Below are positions 6,318 through 37,060 of a stretch of DNA of 54,202 nucleotides, piece by piece. The notes under the pieces are model-generated. The model saw nothing but the letters and a program-made list of their open reading frames with translations. It did not search any database and had not been told where the DNA came from. This stretch comes from Gemmatimonadota bacterium (GTDB taxonomy: Bacteria; Gemmatimonadota; Gemmatimonadetes; Gemmatimonadales; Gemmatimonadaceae), in the NCBI GenBank assembly GCA_023249375.1, contig JAHFCT010000022.1, positions 1 to 54,202 of the forward strand, read 5' to 3'. The number at the start of each line of letters is the position of its first letter. The stretch's first letter is position 1. Position numbers and translations under genes: made by a program.

Positions 6318-7901
6318 GTGCGTCGCAACCGGCTGATCATCACGCTGCTCGTGCTTGCCGTCAGCGCCATTGCCGGCGGCTGGCTCGTGCAGCGCGCGCT
6401 GCGGCGCTCGATGGGGCGCGGCGATGTGCACGGCGCGCGGCTACTGGCCGCGGTGATGGAGCGCGTGCGCGACAGCTACGTCGATTCGCTGTCGGTGGAT
6501 GAACTGTGGCGTCGCGCGGCCATCGGCTTGGTGGACGAGCTGGGCGATCCCAACAGCACGTACCTGCCGCCCGACCGGCTCAAGCGGCTCACCGAGGCGA
6601 CGTCCGGGCTGTACAGCGGCGTCGGCATCCAGGCCGACCGGCGCGAAGGGTACGTCGTGGTGCTCGCCGTGCGCCCGAACTCGCCCGCCGAGCACGCGGG
6701 CGTGCAGGCCGGCGATCGGTTGGCGGAAGCGGACGGCCAGGCGATGAAGGGCTGGACGATGGAAGAGGCGCGCAACGCGATGCGCGGCGCGCCCGGCACG
6801 CGACTGCACCTCGTGGTTGAGCGGGGGACGGCGCGCATTCCGTTCGACATGGAGCGCGGCTCCATTCACGTCTCGTCGGTGTCGCGCCAGATGGTGCTCG
6901 ACGGCGGTGTCGGCTACGTGCTGCTCTCGACGTTCAGCGATTCGGCGCGCCAGGAGCTGACGCGCACGGTGGATTCGCTGGTGGCCAACGGAGCGCGCTC
7001 GCTGATCCTCGACCTGCGCAACAACCCCGGCGGTCTGTTGAATCAGGGCGTAGCCATCGCCGATCTCTTTCTCGACCAGGGGCAGGAAATCGTCGACGTG
7101 CGCACCCGCGGGCAAAAGCGCGAAATCGTCTACGTGGACAGCGTGGCACAGAAGTGGCCCAAGCTGCCGCTCGCGGTCGTCGTCAACGCGGGGACGGCGA
7201 GCGCGGCGGAAATCGTGGCGGGCGCGCTGCAGGATCACGATCGCGCGCTCGTGCTCGGCCGCACGTCGTACGGGAAGGGAAGCGCGCAAAATGTCTTTGA
7301 ACTTGAAGGCGGCGGCGGCCTCAAGCTCACGACGGCGCGTTGGTACACGCCGTCGGGGCGGAGTATCAGCCGGCTCGCCAGGGCGGATTCCGCACCGCGC
7401 GTGATCAATGACCGCGCCGAGCGCCCCGTCTTCAAGACCGACGCCGGCCGCAAGGTGCTGGGCGGCGGGGGCATCGCGCCAGACCTCTCGGCGGGCGACT
7501 CCGTGCCGTCGCTGGCGGACCGCAGTTTCTTGATTGCGCTCGGCGCGAAGGCCGCTGTTTTCCGCGACGTCATGAAGAACTTCGCCGCCTCCGAACTGCG
7601 GCGCGGCGCGGCGCGCGACACGCTCTTTGTCGTGAGCCCGGCGCTGCGTGACGCGTTCTATGCGTCCATCGCGCGGCAGGGCATCGATGTGCCGCGCAGT
7701 GTGTACGATGACGCGGCGTCGCTGGTGGACCGCCAGCTGGGCAACGAGATCGCCCGGCAGGCGTTCGGTCTCGAGTATTCCGGCCGTCGCATCGTGCGCA
7801 ACGACAAGGTCGTGCAGCGCGCCGCCGAGTTGCTGCGGCGGGCGACGAATCCGCGGCAGTTGTTGGAGAAGATACCGGTGGCGGATTCCGCTCCGCGGTG
7901 A
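6318..7901 (+). CDS. S41-family C-terminal processing protease (CtpA-like)
   Basis: 527 residues. A single N-terminal membrane anchor (LIITLLVLAVSAIAGGWLV) is followed by a PDZ domain (about 95-175, GVGIQADRREGYVVVLAV). The S41 peptidase core carries the catalytic Ser in NAGTASAAEIV (S295) and Lys in TSYGKGSAQ (K320), so the Ser-Lys dyad is complete. LDLRNNPGGLL is the family strand. It is presumably periplasmic, tethered to the inner membrane, and acts on C-termini of envelope proteins. GTG 6318 follows AGAGG. An upstream TTG at 6282 is a weaker alternative. Confidence 0.9.
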   Translation: MRRNRLIITLLVLAVSAIAGGWLVQRALRRSMGRGDVHGARLLAAVMERVRDSYVDSLSVDELWRRAAIGLVDELGDPNSTYLPPDRLKRLTEATSGLYSGVGIQADRREGYVVVLAVRPNSPAEHAGVQAGDRLAEADGQAMKGWTMEEARNAMRGAPGTRLHLVVERGTARIPFDMERGSIHVSSVSRQMVLDGGVGYVLLSTFSDSARQELTRTVDSLVANGARSLILDLRNNPGGLLNQGVAIADLFLDQGQEIVDVRTRGQKREIVYVDSVAQKWPKLPLAVVVNAGTASAAEIVAGALQDHDRALVLGRTSYGKGSAQNVFELEGGGGLKLTTARWYTPSGRSISRLARADSAPRVINDRAERPVFKTDAGRKVLGGGGIAPDLSAGDSVPSLADRSFLIALGAKAAVFRDVMKNFAASELRRGAARDTLFVVSPALRDAFYASIARQGIDVPRSVYDDAASLVDRQLGNEIARQAFGLEYSGRRIVRNDKVVQRAAELLRRATNPRQLLEKIPVADSAPR

Positions 7902-27006: not shown

Positions 27007-27228
27007 CTACGGAGTCTGGCCGCGCGTGTACGGCAGCAGCGCCAGATAGCGCGCCTTCTTGATGGCGCTCGCCAGCTGACGCTGGTGACGCGCGCACGTG
27101 CCACTGAGCCGGCTCGGCAGGATCTTGCCGTTGTCCGTGACGAAGCGCGACAAAAAGCGCTCGTCCTTGAAGTCAACAAAGCGGATGCGGGCTTCGTCCA
27201 TCGGGCAGGTCTTCTTCTGGCGGCGCAT
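27007..27228 (-). CDS. rpsR: 30S ribosomal protein S18
   Basis: 73 residues ([20 protein letters not shown]). The conserved [20 protein letters not shown] and C-terminal [16 protein letters not shown] are present. It binds with S6 to the platform of the 30S subunit. Its ATG overlaps the rpsF TAA by one base (TAATG), indicating coupled translation of the S6/S18 pair. Confidence 0.96.
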
Positions 27229-27590
27229 TATTCGTCGTCCTCGTCGTCGTCGTCACGGGCCCGCTTGGCGGCGAGCTGTTCCTCGGTCATTGGCGGCGCG
27301 CCGAGCTCATGCTCATGGATCGAGATGAGGTAGCGTACGACGCCGTCGTCGAGCTTGAGCGAGCGCTCGAACTCGGGCAGCACCTTGCCGTCCGCCTTGA
27401 AGCGCGCGACGAGATAGTAGCCTGTCTCACGCTTGCCGATCTTGTAGGCGAGCTGGCGACGGCCCCAGTGGTTGAGCGCAATTTCGCCGTCGGCGCTGAG
27501 GAGCGCGTGGTGCTTGGCGATCTTGTCGTTGATGGCGGCGTCTTCGAGCGTCGAGTCGAAGACGTACACCGCCTCGTATTCACGAGTCAC
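27228..27590 (-). CDS. rpsF: 30S ribosomal protein S6
   Basis: 120 residues from GTG 27590 ([20 protein letters not shown]). [21 protein letters not shown] is the family core, and the C-terminus is a highly acidic tail (DDDDEDDE). AAAGGAGG lies 10 nt before the GTG. A TTG at 27599 is only one base from the SD and is rejected as the start. S6 pairs with S18, encoded next. The leader carries a strong hairpin and a good promoter. Confidence 0.95.
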
Positions 27591-27619
27591 GGATGGCAAT
27601 CCTCCTTTGGTCGTTCGCG

Positions 27620-27919: not shown

Positions 27920-28090
27920 ATGCCAGCCGAAGAGCTGAAGGCAGAGGCAATGGGAGCCCCCAAGCGACCAGGACGGATGGCGTGGACTGCACCAGTTCTT
28001 CGCACGCTCGGCGACCTTTCTGCCCTCACGCAGAAGGTGGACACCATCGGCAAGAATGACGGCGGCTCCGGCACCATGAAGCGCACCTGA
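27920..28090 (+). CDS. Lasso peptide precursor 1
   Basis: 56 residues (MPAEELKAEAMGAPKRPGRM at the start, GGSGTMKRT at the end). Residues 22-36 (WTAPVLRTLGDLSAL) plus Thr37 match the lasso leader pattern Y/W-x-x-P-x-L-x-x-x-G-x(4-5)-T. Taking that Thr as position -2, the core is 18 residues: KVDTIGKNDGGSGTMKRT. It has Lys1 and an Asp at position 9, suited to a nine-residue macrolactam ring. It sits 7 nt before the PqqD-type gene. GGGGGTAGAG precedes the ATG. The second precursor at 30 kb aligns without gaps over the last 35 residues (19 identical). Confidence 0.85.
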   Translation: MPAEELKAEAMGAPKRPGRMAWTAPVLRTLGDLSALTQKVDTIGKNDGGSGTMKRT

Positions 28091-28097
28091 GCACAGC

Positions 28098-28400
28098 ATG
28101 ACCGTCGCCCTTGCAATCGACGACACCGTGGCTGCCACCCCCGATCAGGTTTCCGCCGACCTCTCGGGCGAGGTGGTGATCCTCGGTATGCGAGACGGCA
28201 TCTACTACGGCGTCGAAAGCGTGGGTGCTCGCATTTGGGCGCTCATTCAGTCGCCAGTACGGGTGTCCACCATTGTGGAGACGCTCGTCGCCGAGTTTGA
28301 CGTCGAACCGACGCCGTGTGCGGCAGACGTCTTGGCCTTTGTCGACTCGCTCGTAGCCAAGGGACTCGTCGCGCGTGTCGACACCGAAGCGGCTGCGTAG
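28098..28400 (+). CDS. Lasso peptide PqqD-type leader-recognition protein (B1)
   Basis: 100 residues with the PqqD/RRE fold pattern: strands (ADLSGEVVILGMRDGIYYGV), then a winged-helix (ESVGARIWALIQSPVRVSTI, VAEFDVEPTPCAADVLAFVD). It ends SLVAKGLVARV. In lasso systems the stand-alone RRE protein B1 binds the YxxP leader and presents the precursor to protease B2 and cyclase C. It starts 7 nt after precursor 1 and overlaps B2 by 26 nt, so the three are almost certainly co-translated. Confidence 0.9.
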   Translation: MTVALAIDDTVAATPDQVSADLSGEVVILGMRDGIYYGVESVGARIWALIQSPVRVSTIVETLVAEFDVEPTPCAADVLAFVDSLVAKGLVARVDTEAAA

Positions 28401-28830
28401 CTTTGCTGACCTGCCGCGCCAGGAGCGCGGCCTGGCGCTGCGGGCGCTCTGGACGCTCGCGCTCGTTCGGGTAGGGCTGCGCCTGCTGTCGTTTCGCCGG
28501 CTTCGCGCGCGCATTGAACGCGCCGGCGGCGCCTGCGGCTCGGTGGACGAGCCCTTCGCCCGCGCCGTGCGCCGCGCGGTGGATCGGGCTGCCCGTTCGA
28601 TTCCCGGCAGCGCCTGCTTGGCTCAAGCGTTGGCGGCGGAGGTGTTGCTGCGGCGCGGCGGACGCGAGGTCCGTACCTCCATCGGAGTGGCACGCGACGG
28701 CCGACTCCTTGCGGCGCACGCGTGGGTGGAGAGTGCAGGGGTGCTGGTGACCGGAGACGCCGCCGATCTCGGGGAGTACAAGCGGTTGCTGGTCTTTGGC
28801 GAGCCGAGCGTCGCTGCGTCCGCGCCGTGA
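28375..28830 (+). CDS. Lasso peptide leader protease (B2, transglutaminase-like)
   Basis: 151 residues. The cysteine-protease triad of the lasso B2 family is visible: Cys81 in IPGSACLAQALAAEVLLRR, His115 in LLAAHAWVESAGVLV, and a likely Asp128 (GD after the His strand). TSIGVARDGR is the strand typical of the Transglut_core3 fold. It removes the leader after the conserved Thr-x, freeing the core N-terminus for ring closure. GTG 28375 lies inside the B1 gene. Its TGA overlaps the methyltransferase GTG (GTGA). Confidence 0.9.
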   Translation: MSTPKRLRSFADLPRQERGLALRALWTLALVRVGLRLLSFRRLRARIERAGGACGSVDEPFARAVRRAVDRAARSIPGSACLAQALAAEVLLRRGGREVRTSIGVARDGRLLAAHAWVESAGVLVTGDAADLGEYKRLLVFGEPSVAASAP

Positions 28831-30017
28831 CCTACGTACTGAACGACTACGTCGCGATGGTTTCGGACGAGCGCCGCACGGGCGCGTACGTGCGCGCCCT
28901 GCAGTGCTTGGTGCGTCCTGATTCTGTCGTGCTCGATCTCGGCACAGGCTTCGGGTTCTTCGCGGTGCTCGCGGCACGGCTTGGCGCCAAGCACGTCTAC
29001 GCCGTCGATCCCAACGATGCCATCTCCCTCGGCCCTGAACTGGCGCGAGACAATGGCGTGAGCGACCGCGTGACATTTTTTCACGCGGACTCGCGCGACA
29101 TTTCCCTGCCGGAGCGCGCCAACGTGCTCGTGGAGGACGTACGCGGCGTGCTGCCGTATCACGCCGACCGGGTGCGACTACTGTGCGACGCGCGTCATCG
29201 CTTGCTCACTCCGAATGCGCGGGTCGTCGCCGAGCGCGATCATCTGTTTGCGGCGCCGGTGCGGGCGCGGCCCGATTGGTCCAGCGACCGAAGGGTGCTG
29301 CAAGACGGCGCCTTCGGGGTCAGTCTCGAGGCCATTGCGCGCCGGACCGCCGATGCGTGGCGCCGAGGGAGGATCGCGCCGGATCAAGTGCTCTTCGGTG
29401 CCGAATCGATAGGATCCATTGAACTGGCGACGGTGCAGTCCCCCAACTTCGAGGGCATCGCTGCCTGGACGGTGCCGGCCGCCGCACGCATCGACGGCTT
29501 CACCGTGTGGTTCGATGCTGAACTCGCTGGCGGCGAGCGATTCTCGACCGCGCCGGGACCGGCGCAAGCCGTGCACGGAAGCTCCTATTTTCCTCTACGA
29601 GAACCGATTGAGGTGCTGCCGGGGGACGGTCTACGGTTTCGATTCGTCGGGATTCAAGGCGGCTCGGACTACACGTGGATCTGGGAATGCGGCTGTCGGC
29701 GTGGAGCCGACGCCGCGTGGACGCCGGGTCCGCGACAGTCCTCCATCGGCGCAACGCTGCTCGCTTCGCGGCGGCTCGCCTCACAGTCGCAAGAGCACGT
29801 GCCGACACTAGGAGAAGGGGGCTGTCGCCTGCAGCGCGCCACCGCGCTTATCGACGGCATTCGTGAGTCCCGAGAGATTGCTGCGGCGCTCGCCGCGACG
29901 GCGGCGTGCGGCTTTCGCGACAAGGATCAGGCATTCGCGTGGCTGGTTCGGGTGTTGCGAAACCTCGAGGTGGGTCACGAACCCCAAACCGAGGTGGAGC
30001 CACGAGATATTGCCTAA
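28827..30017 (+). CDS. PRMT-like SAM methyltransferase with possible RRE-like C-terminus
   Basis: 396 residues. SAM motif I is VVLDLGTGFGFFAVLAARLG (34-53) followed by HVYAVDPND, as in protein arginine methyltransferases. NVLVEDVRGVLPY resembles the PRMT substrate-Glu loop, though with Glu-Asp instead of two spaced Glu. A beta-rich middle (about 200-300) matches the PRMT barrel region in size. The last ~70 residues (LQRATALIDGIRESREIAAA, then AFAWLVRVLRNL) look like a PqqD-type winged helix, which would bind a leader. Being inside the lasso operon, it probably modifies the peptide. The invariant Arg17 of both cores is the obvious candidate, by inference. It could instead act on another residue. 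Confidence 0.72.
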   Translation: MTYVLNDYVAMVSDERRTGAYVRALQCLVRPDSVVLDLGTGFGFFAVLAARLGAKHVYAVDPNDAISLGPELARDNGVSDRVTFFHADSRDISLPERANVLVEDVRGVLPYHADRVRLLCDARHRLLTPNARVVAERDHLFAAPVRARPDWSSDRRVLQDGAFGVSLEAIARRTADAWRRGRIAPDQVLFGAESIGSIELATVQSPNFEGIAAWTVPAAARIDGFTVWFDAELAGGERFSTAPGPAQAVHGSSYFPLREPIEVLPGDGLRFRFVGIQGGSDYTWIWECGCRRGADAAWTPGPRQSSIGATLLASRRLASQSQEHVPTLGEGGCRLQRATALIDGIRESREIAAALAATAACGFRDKDQAFAWLVRVLRNLEVGHEPQTEVEPRDIA

Positions 30018-30038: not shown

Positions 30039-30072
30039 ACTTACAGTCCAGCTGGTCCTGAGAGGAGTGACG

Positions 30073-30270
30073 TTGGAAACGAAAGAGCGGGTCCACCATT
30101 CAGAAGCGCAGTATCCCCGTCCGTGCCGTGTCGATCAGTGCAGTGTACCCGTCCGCGCGCCGTACGAAGTGCCCTTGCTCAGGACCTTCGGATCCGTTGC
30201 CGCGCTGACCGCCAAAGTCGATTGGCAAGGGCGAACCGACGGCGGCTCCTTCTTGATGTCGCGAACCTAG
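30073..30270 (+). CDS. Lasso peptide precursor 2
   Basis: 65 residues from TTG 30073, with AGGAG five nt upstream; a GTG at 30067 would add two residues but sits on the SD. The leader motif is YEVPLLRTFGSVAALT. With that Thr at -2, the core is KVDWQGRTDGGSFLMSRT: Lys1, Asp9, and the same C-terminal Arg17-Thr18 as precursor 1. Shared core positions are K1, V2, D3, G6, D9, G10, G11, S12, M15, R17 and T18. Its N-terminal extension carries two Cys (PCRVDQC) absent from precursor 1. It lies 13 nt upstream of the cyclase gene. Confidence 0.85.
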   Translation: METKERVHHSEAQYPRPCRVDQCSVPVRAPYEVPLLRTFGSVAALTAKVDWQGRTDGGSFLMSRT

Positions 30271-30283
30271 CGACCGGAGAGCG

Positions 30284-32065
30284 ATGCTCAGCTTTGGCGC
30301 CCTAATCGCACTCGACGGCGCGCCCATAGCACCCGAGGCCTCAGCGCGCCTCCGTCAGTCGCTCGCCGCGACGCCGGGGCGCGCTCATTCGTTTGAAACG
30401 TCGACCGTCGCCTGCGTTCACGTGACACACGCGGCGCCGCTGGACAACGACCGCGATCTGCCCCTCATCGCGACACAAGGCCTCGTGTTGATGGGAGCGC
30501 TGCGCCTCGATGATCGCGAGCGTCTGCGCCGGGAACTGAAGGACGGTGCAGCGGGCGAACTTGCGAGCGCATCGGATGCCTGGCTGGCGGCCATGGCGTA
30601 TCTCCGCTGGGGTGAGCGATTCGCCGAGCACCTCATGGGTGACTTCGCGTTCTGCGTGTGGGATTCCGCGGCAGGCCGAGTGGTCTGCGTGCGCGACCAT
30701 CACGGCAACCGCCCGCTGTATTGGGGCCGCGACGGCGAGCGATTCGTCGTCAGCACGGCGCTTGAGGGCGTGCGTTCACAGGTCGCGCGGGCGGGAGAAC
30801 TGCGCGAGGACTCGATCGCGAGCTTCCTCGAAACTGGCTGGGTTCGGGATCCGTCGGCGACTGTTTGGCGCGGCGTGCATCGGGTGCCGCGCGCCACGAC
30901 GCTTTCGGTTTCGCGCGGCGCGGCACCGAACTTTCGAACGCACTGGGAGTTTCCGGTGCCAGCGCCGCTACGCTACCGCGATGATGCCGATTATGTGGCG
31001 CACTTCGCCGAGGTGCTTGGGGCTGCGGTGCGCGATCGACTGCGCGCACCGTCGGCGGTGGTGTTTCTCAGCGGCGGGATGGACAGTACCACGCTGGCGT
31101 GCACCGCCCGCGAGACGGCGCCGGACGTGACGCTGTGGGCGCTCACCACCGGGACACCGGCGCTCGCGGCGAGCGACGACGATCATCTGTCGCGTGCCGT
31201 GGCGCAGCACTTGGGGATTGCCCACGACCAACTCGCGTTCGACGAGCTCCGCTCGCTTGCCTGGCTCGATGACGTGACGCCGTATCCGGCGGAGCCGATG
31301 GATGAGCCCGACCTCGGGGCCGCGCGGGCGAGCGCGGTCGCCGCGGCACGGCGCGCGCCGATTGCGATCCTCGGGGAGGACGGCGACACGCTGCTGCAAG
31401 CGCCGACGTTGCTGGCGCAGCTGAGGTCGCAGCCGTTCGGCGAAGTCCTCGGCGCGTGGTGGCGGTATCGGCGCCAGGCCGGGCGCTGGCCATGGGTGGG
31501 GTTGGAGTGGCGCAGACGCGCGCGGGGCGCGCTCGGCCGCGGCGTGCCCGATCGCACGCCGTGGCTGCGCGACAGCGCCCGACGCCTCGCGGGCGCCGAG
31601 CCGCCGCGCGCGGCGCATCCCGTGCGTCCGCGGTCGGTGGCGTTGCTGACGTCTGGACTGTGGGACGCCGTGTACGAGCACCAGTCGCCGTCGGTGTCCG
31701 GCGCCGAGCTGCTGGTGACGCTGCCGCTGGTCGACCCTCGCGTGATCGAGTTTGTGTTTGCGATTCCACCCGTGCCGTGGGGACAGAACAAGCAGATCAT
31801 GCGTGCGGCGATGCGCCACCGGCTGCCCGCCGAGGTGCTGGCGCGCCCCAAGACGGCGTTCGGCGGATACATCGAAGCACGCGTGGCGCAGTGGCGCGCG
31901 AGCGGCGGCGCCGCTGCCCGATTGTCGGCGCGCGTGGCGCCGTGGGTGGATCGCGCGCGGGTAGAGGAGGTGTTTCAGCGCGGTCATCCGTACGCGGTGC
32001 TCGACGCATGGCGTGTGCTCGTGCTCGATCACTGGCTCGCCCGCCAGGCGCAGGGCAATGGCTGA
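30284..32065 (+). CDS. Lasso cyclase (C, asparagine-synthetase-like)
   Basis: 593 residues. The N-terminal half is a class-II glutaminase-like domain (GDFAFCVWDSAAGRVVCVRD, GNRPLYW), but it begins MLSFGAL with no Cys2. It therefore cannot hydrolyse glutamine, as expected of a lasso cyclase. The C-terminal synthetase domain has the PP-loop VVFLSGGMDSTTLA (SGGMDST at 263-269) and ILGEDGD. It adenylates the Asp9 side chain and closes the ring with the core N-terminus while the tail is threaded. CGGAGAG precedes the ATG. Confidence 0.9.
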   Translation: MLSFGALIALDGAPIAPEASARLRQSLAATPGRAHSFETSTVACVHVTHAAPLDNDRDLPLIATQGLVLMGALRLDDRERLRRELKDGAAGELASASDAWLAAMAYLRWGERFAEHLMGDFAFCVWDSAAGRVVCVRDHHGNRPLYWGRDGERFVVSTALEGVRSQVARAGELREDSIASFLETGWVRDPSATVWRGVHRVPRATTLSVSRGAAPNFRTHWEFPVPAPLRYRDDADYVAHFAEVLGAAVRDRLRAPSAVVFLSGGMDSTTLACTARETAPDVTLWALTTGTPALAASDDDHLSRAVAQHLGIAHDQLAFDELRSLAWLDDVTPYPAEPMDEPDLGAARASAVAAARRAPIAILGEDGDTLLQAPTLLAQLRSQPFGEVLGAWWRYRRQAGRWPWVGLEWRRRARGALGRGVPDRTPWLRDSARRLAGAEPPRAAHPVRPRSVALLTSGLWDAVYEHQSPSVSGAELLVTLPLVDPRVIEFVFAIPPVPWGQNKQIMRAAMRHRLPAEVLARPKTAFGGYIEARVAQWRASGGAAARLSARVAPWVDRARVEEVFQRGHPYAVLDAWRVLVLDHWLARQAQGNG

Positions 32066-33017
32066 CTACACACTCTACGGACTCGTCGTGCGCTCGGACC
32101 GACCGCTCGGCGGGCTCGACGCGGCGCCGGACGGAGCCGCCGTTGACGTGCAGATCACGCTGGGCGAAGGCGCGCCGCCCAACGCGCACTCCGAAGATCT
32201 CGTGCCGTACCACTCCGGCGGCGCGCACGCCGAGAGTGAAGCGGACGTGCGCCGCGATACCGCCGGGAATTTCTGGTTCAGGTACTCCGACGACACCTGC
32301 TTTGTGCTCGACCCTGCGGGCACGAGCATTCGTGCCTGGTGGGCGGAGCACTCCTCGCTTGAGGACACGGCCACGTACCTGCTGGGGCCGGTACTTGGAT
32401 TTGCCCTTCGCCGCCGCGGGGTGTTGGCGTTACACGCGAGCGCCATCATTCTCGGGGGCCGCGCCGTCGCGTTTCTTGGCCGCAGCGGCTCCGGCAAGTC
32501 CACCACCGCCGCGGCGTTCGCCGCCGAGGGCGTGCCGGTGCTGAGCGACGACGTGGTTGCGGTGCGGACGATCGGCGGCTTGGCATCGGCGTATCCATCG
32601 TATCGGCTGCTGCGCCTGTGGGACGCATCGGAGCAGATGTTATTTGGCACGGTGGGTCAACTGCCCTTGATGACGCCAACGTGGGACAAGCGTGCGCTGC
32701 CCCTCGGCGATGCGCATCCGTTCCACGCGGCGCCGGCACCGCTTGGCGACTTGTTCATCATCGCGCCGCGCGCCGACGATGCGCACGCACCATACGTCGA
32801 GGTGATGCGGCCGCGCGTCGCGTTCATGGAACTCGTCGCGAACACCTACGCGAACTATCTGCTGGATGACGCGATGCGCGCTGAGGAGATGGGCGCGCTC
32901 GACGCCCTGCTGCGCGGGCGCCGCGTGCGGCGCCTCGTGCCGCACGCCGATCCGAGCCGACTTGAGGCACTCGTGCGATGCGTGCGCGACGCCGTGGACG
33001 AGTCCGACGGTCGCTGA
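32058..33017 (+). CDS. HPr-kinase-like lasso peptide kinase
   Basis: 319 residues. The Walker A is LGRSGSGKSTTAAAF (GRSGSGKST at 141-149), preceded by a His in LALHASAIIL and followed by VPVLSDDVVAV. This arrangement matches HprK C-terminal domains. HprK homologues in lasso clusters phosphorylate the C-terminal residue's hydroxyl (serine in the described cases). Both cores here end in Thr18, making that the predicted target. It overlaps the cyclase gene by 8 nt and the next gene follows after 3 nt. Confidence 0.82.
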   Translation: MADYTLYGLVVRSDRPLGGLDAAPDGAAVDVQITLGEGAPPNAHSEDLVPYHSGGAHAESEADVRRDTAGNFWFRYSDDTCFVLDPAGTSIRAWWAEHSSLEDTATYLLGPVLGFALRRRGVLALHASAIILGGRAVAFLGRSGSGKSTTAAAFAAEGVPVLSDDVVAVRTIGGLASAYPSYRLLRLWDASEQMLFGTVGQLPLMTPTWDKRALPLGDAHPFHAAPAPLGDLFIIAPRADDAHAPYVEVMRPRVAFMELVANTYANYLLDDAMRAEEMGALDALLRGRRVRRLVPHADPSRLEALVRCVRDAVDESDGR

Positions 33018-33020
33018 GGC

Positions 33021-34217
33021 GTGACGACGGAGCGGGCCGCGCGCCATCTTTCGCGCATGGGTGAAACGGTGCGCCCCGAGAATGCCTTTGTGCTGGCCGC
33101 GCTGCGCCGAGACGCGCACGCGGCAGACGCGAGGCGCGCGGCGGCCAACGCCGTCACGGACTGGGCGGCGGTGGCGGCGCTGGCGGTCGCGCACGACGTC
33201 TCGTGGCACGTGCTGCGTGCCCTGCCAGGCGACGCCTCTCTCGACGCCGCTCGCGAGCCGCTCACCGCGGCGGTGAATCACGCGGCGATCAGCGGACTTG
33301 CGGCGGCGCGGCAGCTCACGGAATTGCACGGCCTGCTGCAGCGCGCGGGCGTGCGCGCGGTGGCGTACAAGGGGCCCGCGCTCGCCGTTGACGTGCACGC
33401 TGATCTGGCGGCGCGCGTGTTCACGGACTTGGATATGCTCATTGCGGAGCATGACCGCGCGCGAGCGGACGAGGCGATGCGAGCCGCCGGCTACGTGCCG
33501 CCGTCGGGCTTCACGCGGCGCGAGGCCCGCGTGTACTCCCGATGGGAGGGAGTGGCCCACTTCGAGCGTGGCGCCGATTGGCCGGTGGAGCTTCACTGGC
33601 GCTGCCAGGCGCCGCGCTATGGCGGACCACAGGATCCGGCGGCCATCGTGGCGCGCGCCGTGCCTCGCGCGCTGGGGGGCGGCACGGTGTTGGTGCCCGT
33701 CGCGGAAGATCTGGGCGTGTTGCTCGCGCTGCACGGCGCAAAGCACGCGTGGACCAGCATGATGTGGCTCGCCGACTTCGCGGCCGCCGTGACGCGTCCC
33801 GCGTTCCACTGGACCGTGGCGACCGAGCGCGCGTCGGCGTGGGGAGTGCAGCGCGCATGGCATTACGCCGTGCGGGTTGCGTCGACCCTCGTCTGCTTGC
33901 CCGTGCCCGAGCGCCTTCTGGCTGCAGCGCGCGGTGACGCGCGGATTACGCCGCTGGTGGACGCGGCCTGCGCGCGACTGTCGGGTGCGAGCGTGATCCC
34001 GGATGTCGGCGCGGAGTCAACCCCGCGTTACGACCTGCAGTGGCTGGACGGAACGCTGCCGCGGCTGCGGTATCTCGCGCTGGCGACGGTGCTGCCTACC
34101 CCGGCGGACCGCATGGCGGCGCGTCTGCCCGATGTGCTGCTTCCGCTGGCGTATCCGCTGCGCGCCGTGCGGGTCGCCGCACGCGCGATGGCGCACGCGG
34201 CGACGAGGCACGAATGA
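33021..34217 (+). CDS. Nucleotidyltransferase-family protein of the lasso cluster
   Basis: 398 residues of the NTP_transf_5 type. AVAYKGPALAVDVHADLA (KGPAL at 117-121) is followed by the metal-binding acidic pair in VFTDLDMLIAEHD (D136, D138). Then come VELHWR and a helical C-terminus with LLALHGAKHAWTSMMWLADF. Family members recur in kinase-containing lasso clusters, but to my knowledge the reaction is undefined. It could transfer a nucleotide or extend the phosphate added by the kinase, which is inference. GTG 33021 is the start. Its stop overlaps the ABC exporter ATG (ATGA). Confidence 0.75.
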   Translation: MTTERAARHLSRMGETVRPENAFVLAALRRDAHAADARRAAANAVTDWAAVAALAVAHDVSWHVLRALPGDASLDAAREPLTAAVNHAAISGLAAARQLTELHGLLQRAGVRAVAYKGPALAVDVHADLAARVFTDLDMLIAEHDRARADEAMRAAGYVPPSGFTRREARVYSRWEGVAHFERGADWPVELHWRCQAPRYGGPQDPAAIVARAVPRALGGGTVLVPVAEDLGVLLALHGAKHAWTSMMWLADFAAAVTRPAFHWTVATERASAWGVQRAWHYAVRVASTLVCLPVPERLLAAARGDARITPLVDAACARLSGASVIPDVGAESTPRYDLQWLDGTLPRLRYLALATVLPTPADRMAARLPDVLLPLAYPLRAVRVAARAMAHAATRHE

Positions 34218-35908
34218 GCGACCTGCGCGCCTTCGCGCGCTTCCTTTGGCGTGACCACCGTCGCGCGATGCTCGTGGTGGCAGTTGCCTCGGCGGCGCTG
34301 TCGCTCACCGAGGGCGTCGGCCTTTTGATGCTGGTCCCCATGCTGCAACAGGTGGGTGTCTCGACGTCCGGCGATGCCGCCGACCACGTGTCACGCGCGC
34401 TCGAGTCGGTGCTGCGCGCCGCGGGTCTCGAGCCCACGCTGTTGAGCGTGTTGGTGCTTGTCGTTGCGCTCGTGACCTTGCGTGCGACGCTGCAGTGGAT
34501 ACTCGCGGTCTGGGAGGCACGTCTTGAGGCGGGTGTGATTGGCCGACTGCGCCAGCGTCTGTTTGCCGCAGTGGTTGCCATGCCGTGGGCGCGATTCACC
34601 GGCGAGCGGCCGGCAGCGCTGCAGCACGCCATTGGTCCGCAAGTTGATGATGTGCACAGCGCGCTGCTGCTGTTGCTGCAAGGCGCTTCGCTGACGGCGG
34701 CGGTGGCGGCGGCCGCTGCCGTCGCCCTCGTGGTGTCGCCCGCGCTGACAGTCATCGTCGGAGTGAGCGGGGCTTTGCTCTTCTGGCTGGCTCGCCAGTT
34801 GCGGGCTCCCGGCCGCGCGGAGGGCGACGCGTTGCTCGCGGCGTCCATAGGACTCTTCGCTCGCATCAGCGAACTGCTCGGCGGTCTCAAGATGGTGCAC
34901 GCGCACGGCGCCGAGGAGCGAGCGGTGGCCGCCGTGGCCGCGGACACGGCGATGTGGACCTCGCTGACTGAACGTACCGCCCTGCGACGCGGGCTCGTGA
35001 GCTTGGCGCTCGCCGTGGCGTCCGCCTTCGTGCTTGGCGTGCTGGTCTGGCTGGGCGTGTCGCTGGCGCACTTGTCGCCCGCTACGCTGCTGCTGCTTCT
35101 GCTGCTGTACGCGCGACTGGTGCCGCGCGTCTCCGAGCTACAAGCAACTGCAAGTTCGCTGGGGCAGACACTCGCCTCGTATCGCTCAGTGGCGGCCCTG
35201 CTAACGCGATGCGCGGGGGAGCGAGACAATGCGGATGGGCGCTTGGCGGCGCTCCCTCGGCTGCCCGCGCGCGCGCCTGACCTTGCGGTGCGAGGGATCA
35301 CCGTTCGCTACCCGGCGACGGAGGGGCGGGCGCTCGTGGATTTCTCCGCGCGCTTCGACGCGGGCACCATCACCGTCGTGACGGGCCCGTCAGGCGCCGG
35401 CAAGACCACGCTGGGCGACGTGCTGCTTGGCCTGCTCGCACCCGAAGTGGGCGACGTCCTTGTCGATGGCGCGCCGCTGGCGGCCCTGCCGCGCGCGCAG
35501 TGGTGCGCGCGGGTGGGCTATCTGGCGCAGGAGCCGATGCTCTTTCACGGCACCATCCGCGAGAACCTGCTGTTCGCGCACCCCGACGCCAGCCACGACG
35601 AGCTGCGCGCGGCGCTGCGCGATGCCGCATGCGACTTTGTCCATCGTCTGCCGCACGGACTCGACGCCCCGATCGGCGAGCGCGGCGTGATGCTCAGTGG
35701 CGGTGAGCGTCAGCGGCTGGCCCTCGCGCGCGCCCTGCTGCGACAACCCGACCTGCTCGTGCTCGACGAGGCGACGAGCGCGCTCGACGCCGAGACCGAG
35801 ACGCGCATTCTCGACACGCTCCACGCGCTCAAAGGGCGCTGCACGGTGGTGTTCTGCACGCACCGCGAGGCGCCAACGGCGATCGCCGATCAGTTGCTGA
35901 GGCTGTAG
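34214..35908 (+). CDS. Lasso peptide ABC exporter (D)
   Basis: 564 residues. An N-terminal six-helix exporter membrane domain (about 15-310) is fused to an ABC ATPase. Walker A is TGPSGAGKTT (390-399), the signature MLSGGERQRLALARAL (493-508) and Walker B DLLVLDEATSALD. The half-transporter would dimerise in the inner membrane and export the mature peptide, giving self-immunity as well. It is the last gene of the cluster. Only 51 nt separate it from convergent ychF, and no terminator is obvious there. Confidence 0.9.
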   Translation: MSDLRAFARFLWRDHRRAMLVVAVASAALSLTEGVGLLMLVPMLQQVGVSTSGDAADHVSRALESVLRAAGLEPTLLSVLVLVVALVTLRATLQWILAVWEARLEAGVIGRLRQRLFAAVVAMPWARFTGERPAALQHAIGPQVDDVHSALLLLLQGASLTAAVAAAAAVALVVSPALTVIVGVSGALLFWLARQLRAPGRAEGDALLAASIGLFARISELLGGLKMVHAHGAEERAVAAVAADTAMWTSLTERTALRRGLVSLALAVASAFVLGVLVWLGVSLAHLSPATLLLLLLLYARLVPRVSELQATASSLGQTLASYRSVAALLTRCAGERDNADGRLAALPRLPARAPDLAVRGITVRYPATEGRALVDFSARFDAGTITVVTGPSGAGKTTLGDVLLGLLAPEVGDVLVDGAPLAALPRAQWCARVGYLAQEPMLFHGTIRENLLFAHPDASHDELRAALRDAACDFVHRLPHGLDAPIGERGVMLSGGERQRLALARALLRQPDLLVLDEATSALDAETETRILDTLHALKGRCTVVFCTHREAPTAIADQLLRL

Positions 35909-35959: not shown

Positions 35960-37060
35960 TTACACGTTGAATCGGAAGAGCAGGACGTCGCCGTCGTTGA
36001 CGACGTATTCCTTGCCTTCACTGCGCACGACGCCCGCGTCCTTGGCTCCCTTGAGTCCACCGTACGAAATGAAATCGTCGTAGCTCACCGTCTCGGCGCG
36101 AATGAACCCGCGCTCGAAGTCGCTGTGAATGACGCCGGCGGCCTGGGGGGCGGTGTCTCCCCGGTGGATCGTCCAGGCGCGCACTTCTTTCTCGCCGGCC
36201 GTGAAATAGGTCTGCAGACCGAGCAGGTGGTAGCCGCCGCGAATCAGCCGGTCGAGCCCAGCCGACTCGATGCCGAGGTGGTGCAGGAACTCGGCGCGTT
36301 CCTCCGGCGGAAGTTCGGCGAGTTCCATTTCGATCTTCGCGGAGAACGTCACGACCTCGGCGGGTTCGTGATCATTGGCGATCGCTGCACGCAGCGCCGT
36401 GATGTGCGGCCCTTCAGCGCCGCCCAGTTCGGCGTCCGTGACATTGGCCGCGTAGAGAATGGGCTTGAGCGTCAGCAGCTGCAGTGGCTGCATGAAGGCG
36501 CGCTCCTCGGGTGTGAGCGCCACGTGCCAGAGCGCGCGTCCTTCCGAGAGCGGCCCGTACGCCTTCTCGAGCGCCGCCACCTCGGTCGCCGCGGCCTTGT
36601 CGCCGGTCTTGGCCGAGCGGCGCGCGCGATCAAGGCGTTTCTCCACGGACGTGAGGTCGGCGAGTGCCAGCTCGAACTCGATCGTCTCGCGGTCGCGCAC
36701 CGGATCGACGGCGCCATCGACGTGCGTCACGTCGTGATCGTCGAAGCAGCGCACGACGTGCACGATGGCGTCCGTTTCGCGGATGTTCGAGAGAAACGCG
36801 TTGCCGCGTCCCTCGCCCTTGGACGCACCGCGCACCAGCCCCGCGATGTCGACGAACTGCACGGCGGCCGGCAGCGTGCGCTGCGGCTTGACGACGTCGG
36901 CGAGCCGGTCGAGCCGCGGGTCCGGGACGTTCACCACGCCGATGTTCGGGTCGATGGTGCAGAACGGATAGTTGGCCGCCTCGGCCTTGGCCGAGGTGAT
37001 GGCATTGAAGAGCGAGGACTTGCCGACGTTCGGCAGTCCGACGATTCCGAGAGAGAGCAT
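35960..37060 (-). CDS. ychF: Ribosome-binding ATPase YchF
   Basis: 366 residues of an Obg-family protein. G1 is [15 protein letters not shown] (8-22), G3 [18 protein letters not shown], with a coiled-coil insert around [19 protein letters not shown]. The G4-like ANVTDAEL replaces the NKxD of GTPases, consistent with the ATP preference of YchF. The C-terminal TGS domain contains [26 protein letters not shown]. It is full length. It is convergent with the lasso cluster. Confidence 0.96.

Follow-up and report, generated by a model that had tools for sequence, protein, structure and literature searches.

The gene cluster

The window, that is, the whole stretch of 54,202 nucleotides that was analysed, makes up an entire contig (C56) of the 3.8-Mb genome of an uncultured Gemmatimonadota bacterium. 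It carries a gene cluster that is complete for a lasso peptide: two precursors, A1 and A2, with B1, B2, C, an HprK-like kinase, an NTP_transf_5 protein, an ABC exporter, and a PRMT-like methyltransferase, all encoded on the plus strand.

27920..28090, plus strand: precursor A1, 56 aa (leave-out HMM E=5.9e-17)
28034-28087, plus strand: predicted A1 core, KVDTIGKNDGGSGTMKRT, the C-terminal end of A1
28098..28400, plus strand: B1, PqqD-like leader-binding protein (RRE) (Pfam PqqD 1.3e-17, above cut-off; NCBIfam lasso_PqqD_Bac 4.2e-21, below cut-off)
28375..28830, plus strand: B2, leader peptidase (NCBIfam lasso_biosyn_B2 1.3e-22, above cut-off)
28824..30017, plus strand: PRMT-like methyltransferase (phmmer to PRMTs, E 1.3e-16; ORF open from 28722)
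30073..30270, plus strand: precursor A2, 65 aa (TTG start at 30073; alternative GTG at 30067)
30163..30213, plus strand: A2 leader recognition segment, Y(-17)EVPLLRTFGSVAALT(-2)A(-1), register as in PMC10368454
30214..30267, plus strand: predicted A2 core, KVDWQGRTDGGSFLMSRT, with a predicted Lys1-Asp9 ring and an Arg17-Thr18 tail
30284..32065, plus strand: C, asparagine-synthetase-like macrolactam synthetase (lasso cyclase) (Asn_synthase 9.3e-28; lass_lactam_cya 3.6e-53, below cut-off)
32013..33017, plus strand: HprK-like kinase (HprK_rel_A 1.1e-9, below cut-off; H...GxxGxGKS...DD motif)
33021..34217, plus strand: NTP_transf_5 nucleotidyltransferase (Pfam NTP_transf_5 9.7e-43)
34205..35908, plus strand: ABC exporter (D) (ABC_tran 1.2e-27; ABC_membrane 1.2e-8)

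The cluster is flanked on the minus strand, at 27007-27599 and 35960-37060, by what we take from inspection by eye to be genes for ribosomal proteins S18 and S6 and for a YchF-like GTPase, respectively. The Asn_synthase and GATase_7 domains of C both score above their Pfam cut-offs, and the Cys and His residues of B2 are invariant among relatives. Judged from its genes, with some NCBIfam lasso models matched only below their cut-offs, the A1/A2 cluster is ordinary lasso machinery with an unusual predicted start residue.

The precursors and their relatives

Translation of A2 from the TTG at 30073 yields 65 aa with the C-terminal end KVDWQGRTDGGSFLMSRT; a start at the GTG at 30067 would make the protein two residues longer. 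An AGGAG sequence at 30064-30068 is better placed for the TTG than for the GTG.

Multiple comparisons support the idea that A1 and A2 are two real, paralogous lasso precursors. A reading of this DNA from its letters and open reading frames (the sequence-only reading) had claimed that their last 35 residues align without gaps and with 19 identities, and exactly 19 are counted, a number reached by none of 100,000 shuffles (shuffle maximum, 11). When a profile HMM was made from relatives with A1, A2, and the nearest sister excluded, it retrieved A1 (E=5.9e-17) and A2 (E=3.3e-15) from among the 911 ORFs of the window, the next match having an E of 1.5. The K-V-D stretch is encoded in A1/A2 by AAG GTG GAC and AAA GTC GAT; these codons differ only synonymously, the pattern that purifying selection would produce. 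In the nearest sister genome, a remnant, NLEAKRRF...RRTDDGSSCLLQD, lies at the place of A2 (L039, ~6951-7330, minus strand) with both leader and core damaged, indicating that A2 has been lost there; A1 is intact.

Among named relatives, the closest are metagenome assemblies of Gemmatimonadota recovered from groundwater and lakes. B2 is present in 10 of the 11 genomes of the genus, with a single match per genome, and in 69 of the 179 genomes of the family. Relatives gathered within Gemmatimonadota from B2 loci and by a precursor-profile search comprise 75 distinct precursors at at least 21 bits, 70 of which end in the tail [RKM][TS] followed by no more than 2 residues. Within sister genus g2, some precursors (L152, L153, L154, L155, L158, L161) are solitary: the sole match near them is to an ABC gene, and the B and C genes lie elsewhere; these lone precursors may be processed in trans. 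The literature searched on lasso peptides in Gemmatimonadetes yielded nothing relevant.

Leader register and probable cleavage site

All 75 precursors keep Y/W(-17), P(-14), G(-8), and T(-2). The W/Y(-17), P(-14), L(-12) register has been verified by in vitro cleavage of BsfA, from a Bradymonas cluster with kinase and nucleotidyltransferase genes (PMC10368454). Leaders of A1/A2 contain the YxxPxL motif and Thr(-2), of the split-B type, and applying the BsfA leader count to them places Thr at -2 and Lys at +1. With the cut fixed in this way by W/Y(-17), P(-14), and T(-2), the predicted core has 18 residues and includes Lys1 and Asp9; the translations of A1 and A2 bear out the positions assigned earlier to Thr(-2), Lys1, Asp9, and Arg17-Thr18. 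Asp9 is also, as had been claimed, the sole suitable ring acid, since the only other acid of the core, Asp3, is too near residue 1. Relatives outside the clade with the tail motif (e.g. GTGARTPE, GTGGVRLD) have ordinary 8-residue rings by the same T(-2) count. Together, these comparisons support a cut after Thr(-2)-x, so that the core would begin with Lys1 and Asp9 would supply the ring acid. A register with Ile/Val(-2), as in Bradymonas, in which Val2 would be penultimate, was rejected, as the ring would then have six residues.

The register is not beyond doubt, since in sister clusters with equal T(-2) spacing the acid is at 10 or 11 (25 of 70 cores), which by this count would mean ring sizes without precedent. 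Were the cut two residues later, with the core running from position 3, the window would have seven-residue Asp1-Asp7 rings, and sister genera would have Gly1, Ser1, or Ala1 with Asp8 or Asp9. Such a start looked strong from sister genus g30 (acid at 10-11, G/S/A at 3), and among registers 1, 2, and 3 it alone holds nearly all members with the tail motif to rings of 7-9. Of the 70 cores, 64 have G, D, S, A, or T at position 3, and the caulosegnins, with 8- and 9-residue rings made by one enzyme set (PMC13352647), provide a precedent. However, it leaves Thr(-2), invariant in 75 of 75 precursors, unexplained and makes a variable residue penultimate. It would also require Asp1 in the window cores and would reduce relatives with the acid at 8 (GTGARTPE, GTGGVRLD, GFGGSNSD) to impossible six-residue rings; because Gly is found at position 3 in these relatives too, a small residue there is no start signal. 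The acid-at-8 outgroup and Thr(-2) demoted the later start to a rival, and we regard it as unlikely.

A cut only one residue later, giving a Val1-Asp8 ring of eight residues, was the alternative named in the sequence-only reading. Val does occupy position 2 in 40 of 75 precursors, and eight-residue rings are common, but the invariant Thr(-2) of the leader register again speaks against it, and members with the acid at 11 would still require ten-residue rings. Thus, a Val1 start seems very improbable, and the discussion below uses the register with Lys1 first.

Predicted ring size and the cyclase tree

Published lasso rings have 7-9 residues (PMC9266682, PMC10368454), and rings of 7-10 are tolerated in engineered fusilassin, so far the only case of rings above nine (up to ten) (PMC13352647). 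Asp9 of the window cores falls within the 7-9 range of acid positions for lasso peptides, and in the window genus, all cores starting with Lys, Arg, or Ala have their sole ring-competent acid at 9. For the 70 cores with the tail motif, which are distinct cores found by similarity to the A1/A2 cluster and not a random sample, the first acid at or beyond position 7 lies at 9 (43 cores), 10 (21), 11 (4), or 8 (2). By the T(-2) register, the sole usable acid is at 10 or 11 in L048, L049, L050, L051, L059, L157, L165, L166, L169, L170, L175, L176, and L178. In sister genera, a cluster with an acid at 10 or 11 sometimes also encodes a core of another predicted ring size (L051, L059, L157, L169, L170, L177). 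A tree of C places members with the acid at 9-11 in one clade (100/99 support), apart from relatives with ordinary predicted rings of 8, such as GTGARTPE, and within the tree, acid position 10 appears in several separate clades. The cores with the acid at 10 or 11 would have either natural rings above nine or, in those genera, a cut two residues later; the later cut ranks lower because Thr(-2) is invariant and the outgroup relatives would be left with six-residue rings.

Lys1 and the amine likely to close the ring

The usual first residue of a lasso core, Gly (or Ala, Ser, or Cys, though this is not strictly defining), is absent here, and both predicted window cores start with Lys1. Reported first residues are Gly, Cys, Ser, Ala, Trp, Leu, and Asn (PMC12670498, PMC6784204, PMC12971885), so it was fair to call Lys1 atypical among tested lasso peptides. 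No experimental Lys1 lasso peptide was found in the literature searched, and Lys1 would be a new experimental start residue if the product were confirmed.

Counted from T(-2), the residue at position 1 in the 70 cores of the similarity-based sample is T (19), K (17), A (12), R (10), S (5), N (4), V (2), or G (1). Across the family, conservation extends to the acid and the basic-Thr tail but not to Lys1. As to whether relatives keep Lys1 and the acid as a pair, a point raised earlier, the acid is retained, but Lys1 is dispensable. Single clusters combine Lys1 cores with cores that begin with Ala1 (L046, L047), Arg1 (L043), or Thr1 (L053), and each of these mixed clusters has one lasso-type C gene. 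Further C matches in the same genomes are mostly weak, being ~27-30% identical over part of the query; in G139 (L053), a second, more similar C match (34%) is found elsewhere in the genome. Since Ala1, Arg1, and Thr1 lack the lysine side-chain amine but have a cyclase in common with Lys1, these clusters point to closure through the alpha-amine, which is likely to be the nucleophile for Lys1 cores.

The sequence-only reading had also suggested that the Lys1 side-chain amine could close the ring, giving a Lys-Asp isopeptide, a free N-terminus, and a topology unlike known lassos. Lys1 is indeed a frequent start, found in 17 of the 70 cores, and both window paralogs have it. However, the Ala1, Arg1, and Thr1 cores occur alongside Lys1 cores in clusters that have a single lasso-type C gene, no other difference accompanies Lys1, and lasso cyclases, according to published descriptions, use the alpha-amine of the N-terminus (PMC9266682). 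Side-chain closure was thus rejected as the leading reading on account of the enzymes that these paralogs have in common, and we consider it scarcely credible.

Probable tailoring enzymes

The H...GxxGxGKS...DD motif of the kinase is intact; an H/GKS/DD catalytic motif has been described for lasso kinases (PMC10368454). In pseudomycoidin, the C-terminal Ser is phosphorylated and hexosylated (PMC9266682), and by analogy, the kinase/nucleotidyltransferase pair here probably acts on the near-invariant Thr of the [R/K]-T tail. The PRMT-like methyltransferase, whose gene is present in the clusters of most relatives, is probably a tailoring enzyme as well. When it is aligned with PRMTs (homology E 1.3e-16), the first Glu of the PRMT double-Glu loop falls at Asp105 and the second at Ala114. 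The idea that Arg17 is conserved only for the methyltransferase was rejected; the enzyme is absent from three genomes (G002, G003, G007), in which the Arg-Thr tail is kept. The literature searched contained no report of a PRMT-type methyltransferase within a lasso cluster.

A proposed pathway

From the genes and the conservation described above, we infer that A2 and A1 are quite probably class II lasso peptide precursors in which the Lys1 alpha-amine is joined to Asp9, forming a threaded nine-residue ring with a tailored Arg-Thr end. B1 would grip the W/YxxPxL...G...T leader, and the kinase, perhaps together with the NTP_transf_5 protein and the PRMT-like methyltransferase, would modify the Arg-Thr end, probably with the leader still attached. 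B2 would then cut after Thr(-2)-x. C, with ATP, would activate the Asp9 side chain for attack by the Lys1 alpha-amine, yielding the nine-residue ring through which the nine-residue tail, GGSxxMxRT, would thread. Finally, the ABC protein would export the product. The Lys1 side chain would stay free throughout.

A cyclic or linear product that is unthreaded would fit the short, Gly-rich tails, which in A1 (GGSGTMKRT) have few bulky plug residues. Yet none of B1, B2, and C is missing or damaged, each is conserved alongside the precursors from genus to genus, and W, F, M, and R are found in the tails, making an unthreaded product highly unlikely.

For the family as a whole, we tentatively suggest, at somewhat less than even chances, natural rings of 9, 10, and 11 residues, sometimes with two sizes per cyclase, on cores with Lys, Thr, Arg, or other non-Gly starts and an Arg/Lys-Thr tail bearing a phosphate and perhaps also methylation by the PRMT-like enzyme. 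With start residue and predicted ring size varying across the ~70 natural cores while cluster and tail motif stay constant, the family amounts to a natural test of cyclase tolerance. If confirmed, Lys1 would be a charged start in a class whose tested members nearly all open with small or hydrophobic residues, and would provide a free ring amine usable for chemistry.

Comparison with known lasso systems

The cluster resembles those of paeninodin and pseudomycoidin in its split B1/B2, C, ABC exporter, and HprK-like kinase, in its nucleotidyltransferase (pseudomycoidin), and in carrying, at the C-terminus or close to it, a hydroxyl residue that is the likely phosphorylation target (PMC9266682). 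It differs from them in having a conserved Thr after Arg/Lys rather than a C-terminal Ser, in Lys1, and in the extra PRMT-like methyltransferase. It also resembles the Bradymonas bsf cluster, which has A, B1, B2, C, D, kinase, and nucleotidyltransferase genes and the Y(-17), P(-14), L(-12) register (PMC10368454). However, bsf has Ile(-2), Gly1-Asp8, and a phosphorylated Ser3, whereas A1/A2 have Thr(-2), a predicted Lys1-Asp9 ring, and the Arg-Thr tail. Among lasso peptides with a non-Gly start, fusilassin is the Trp1 example. Trp is among the listed lasso first residues (PMC6784204), and A1/A2 likewise recall metanodin, with Asn1 (PMC12670498), and citrulassin, with Leu1 (PMC12971885). Unlike these three, the A1/A2 family has Lys, Thr, or Arg at position 1. 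As far as sequence comparison can tell, a new topology is unsupported, and what appears to be new in this family is its Lys/Thr/Arg starts, possible rings above nine, and the PRMT-like enzyme.
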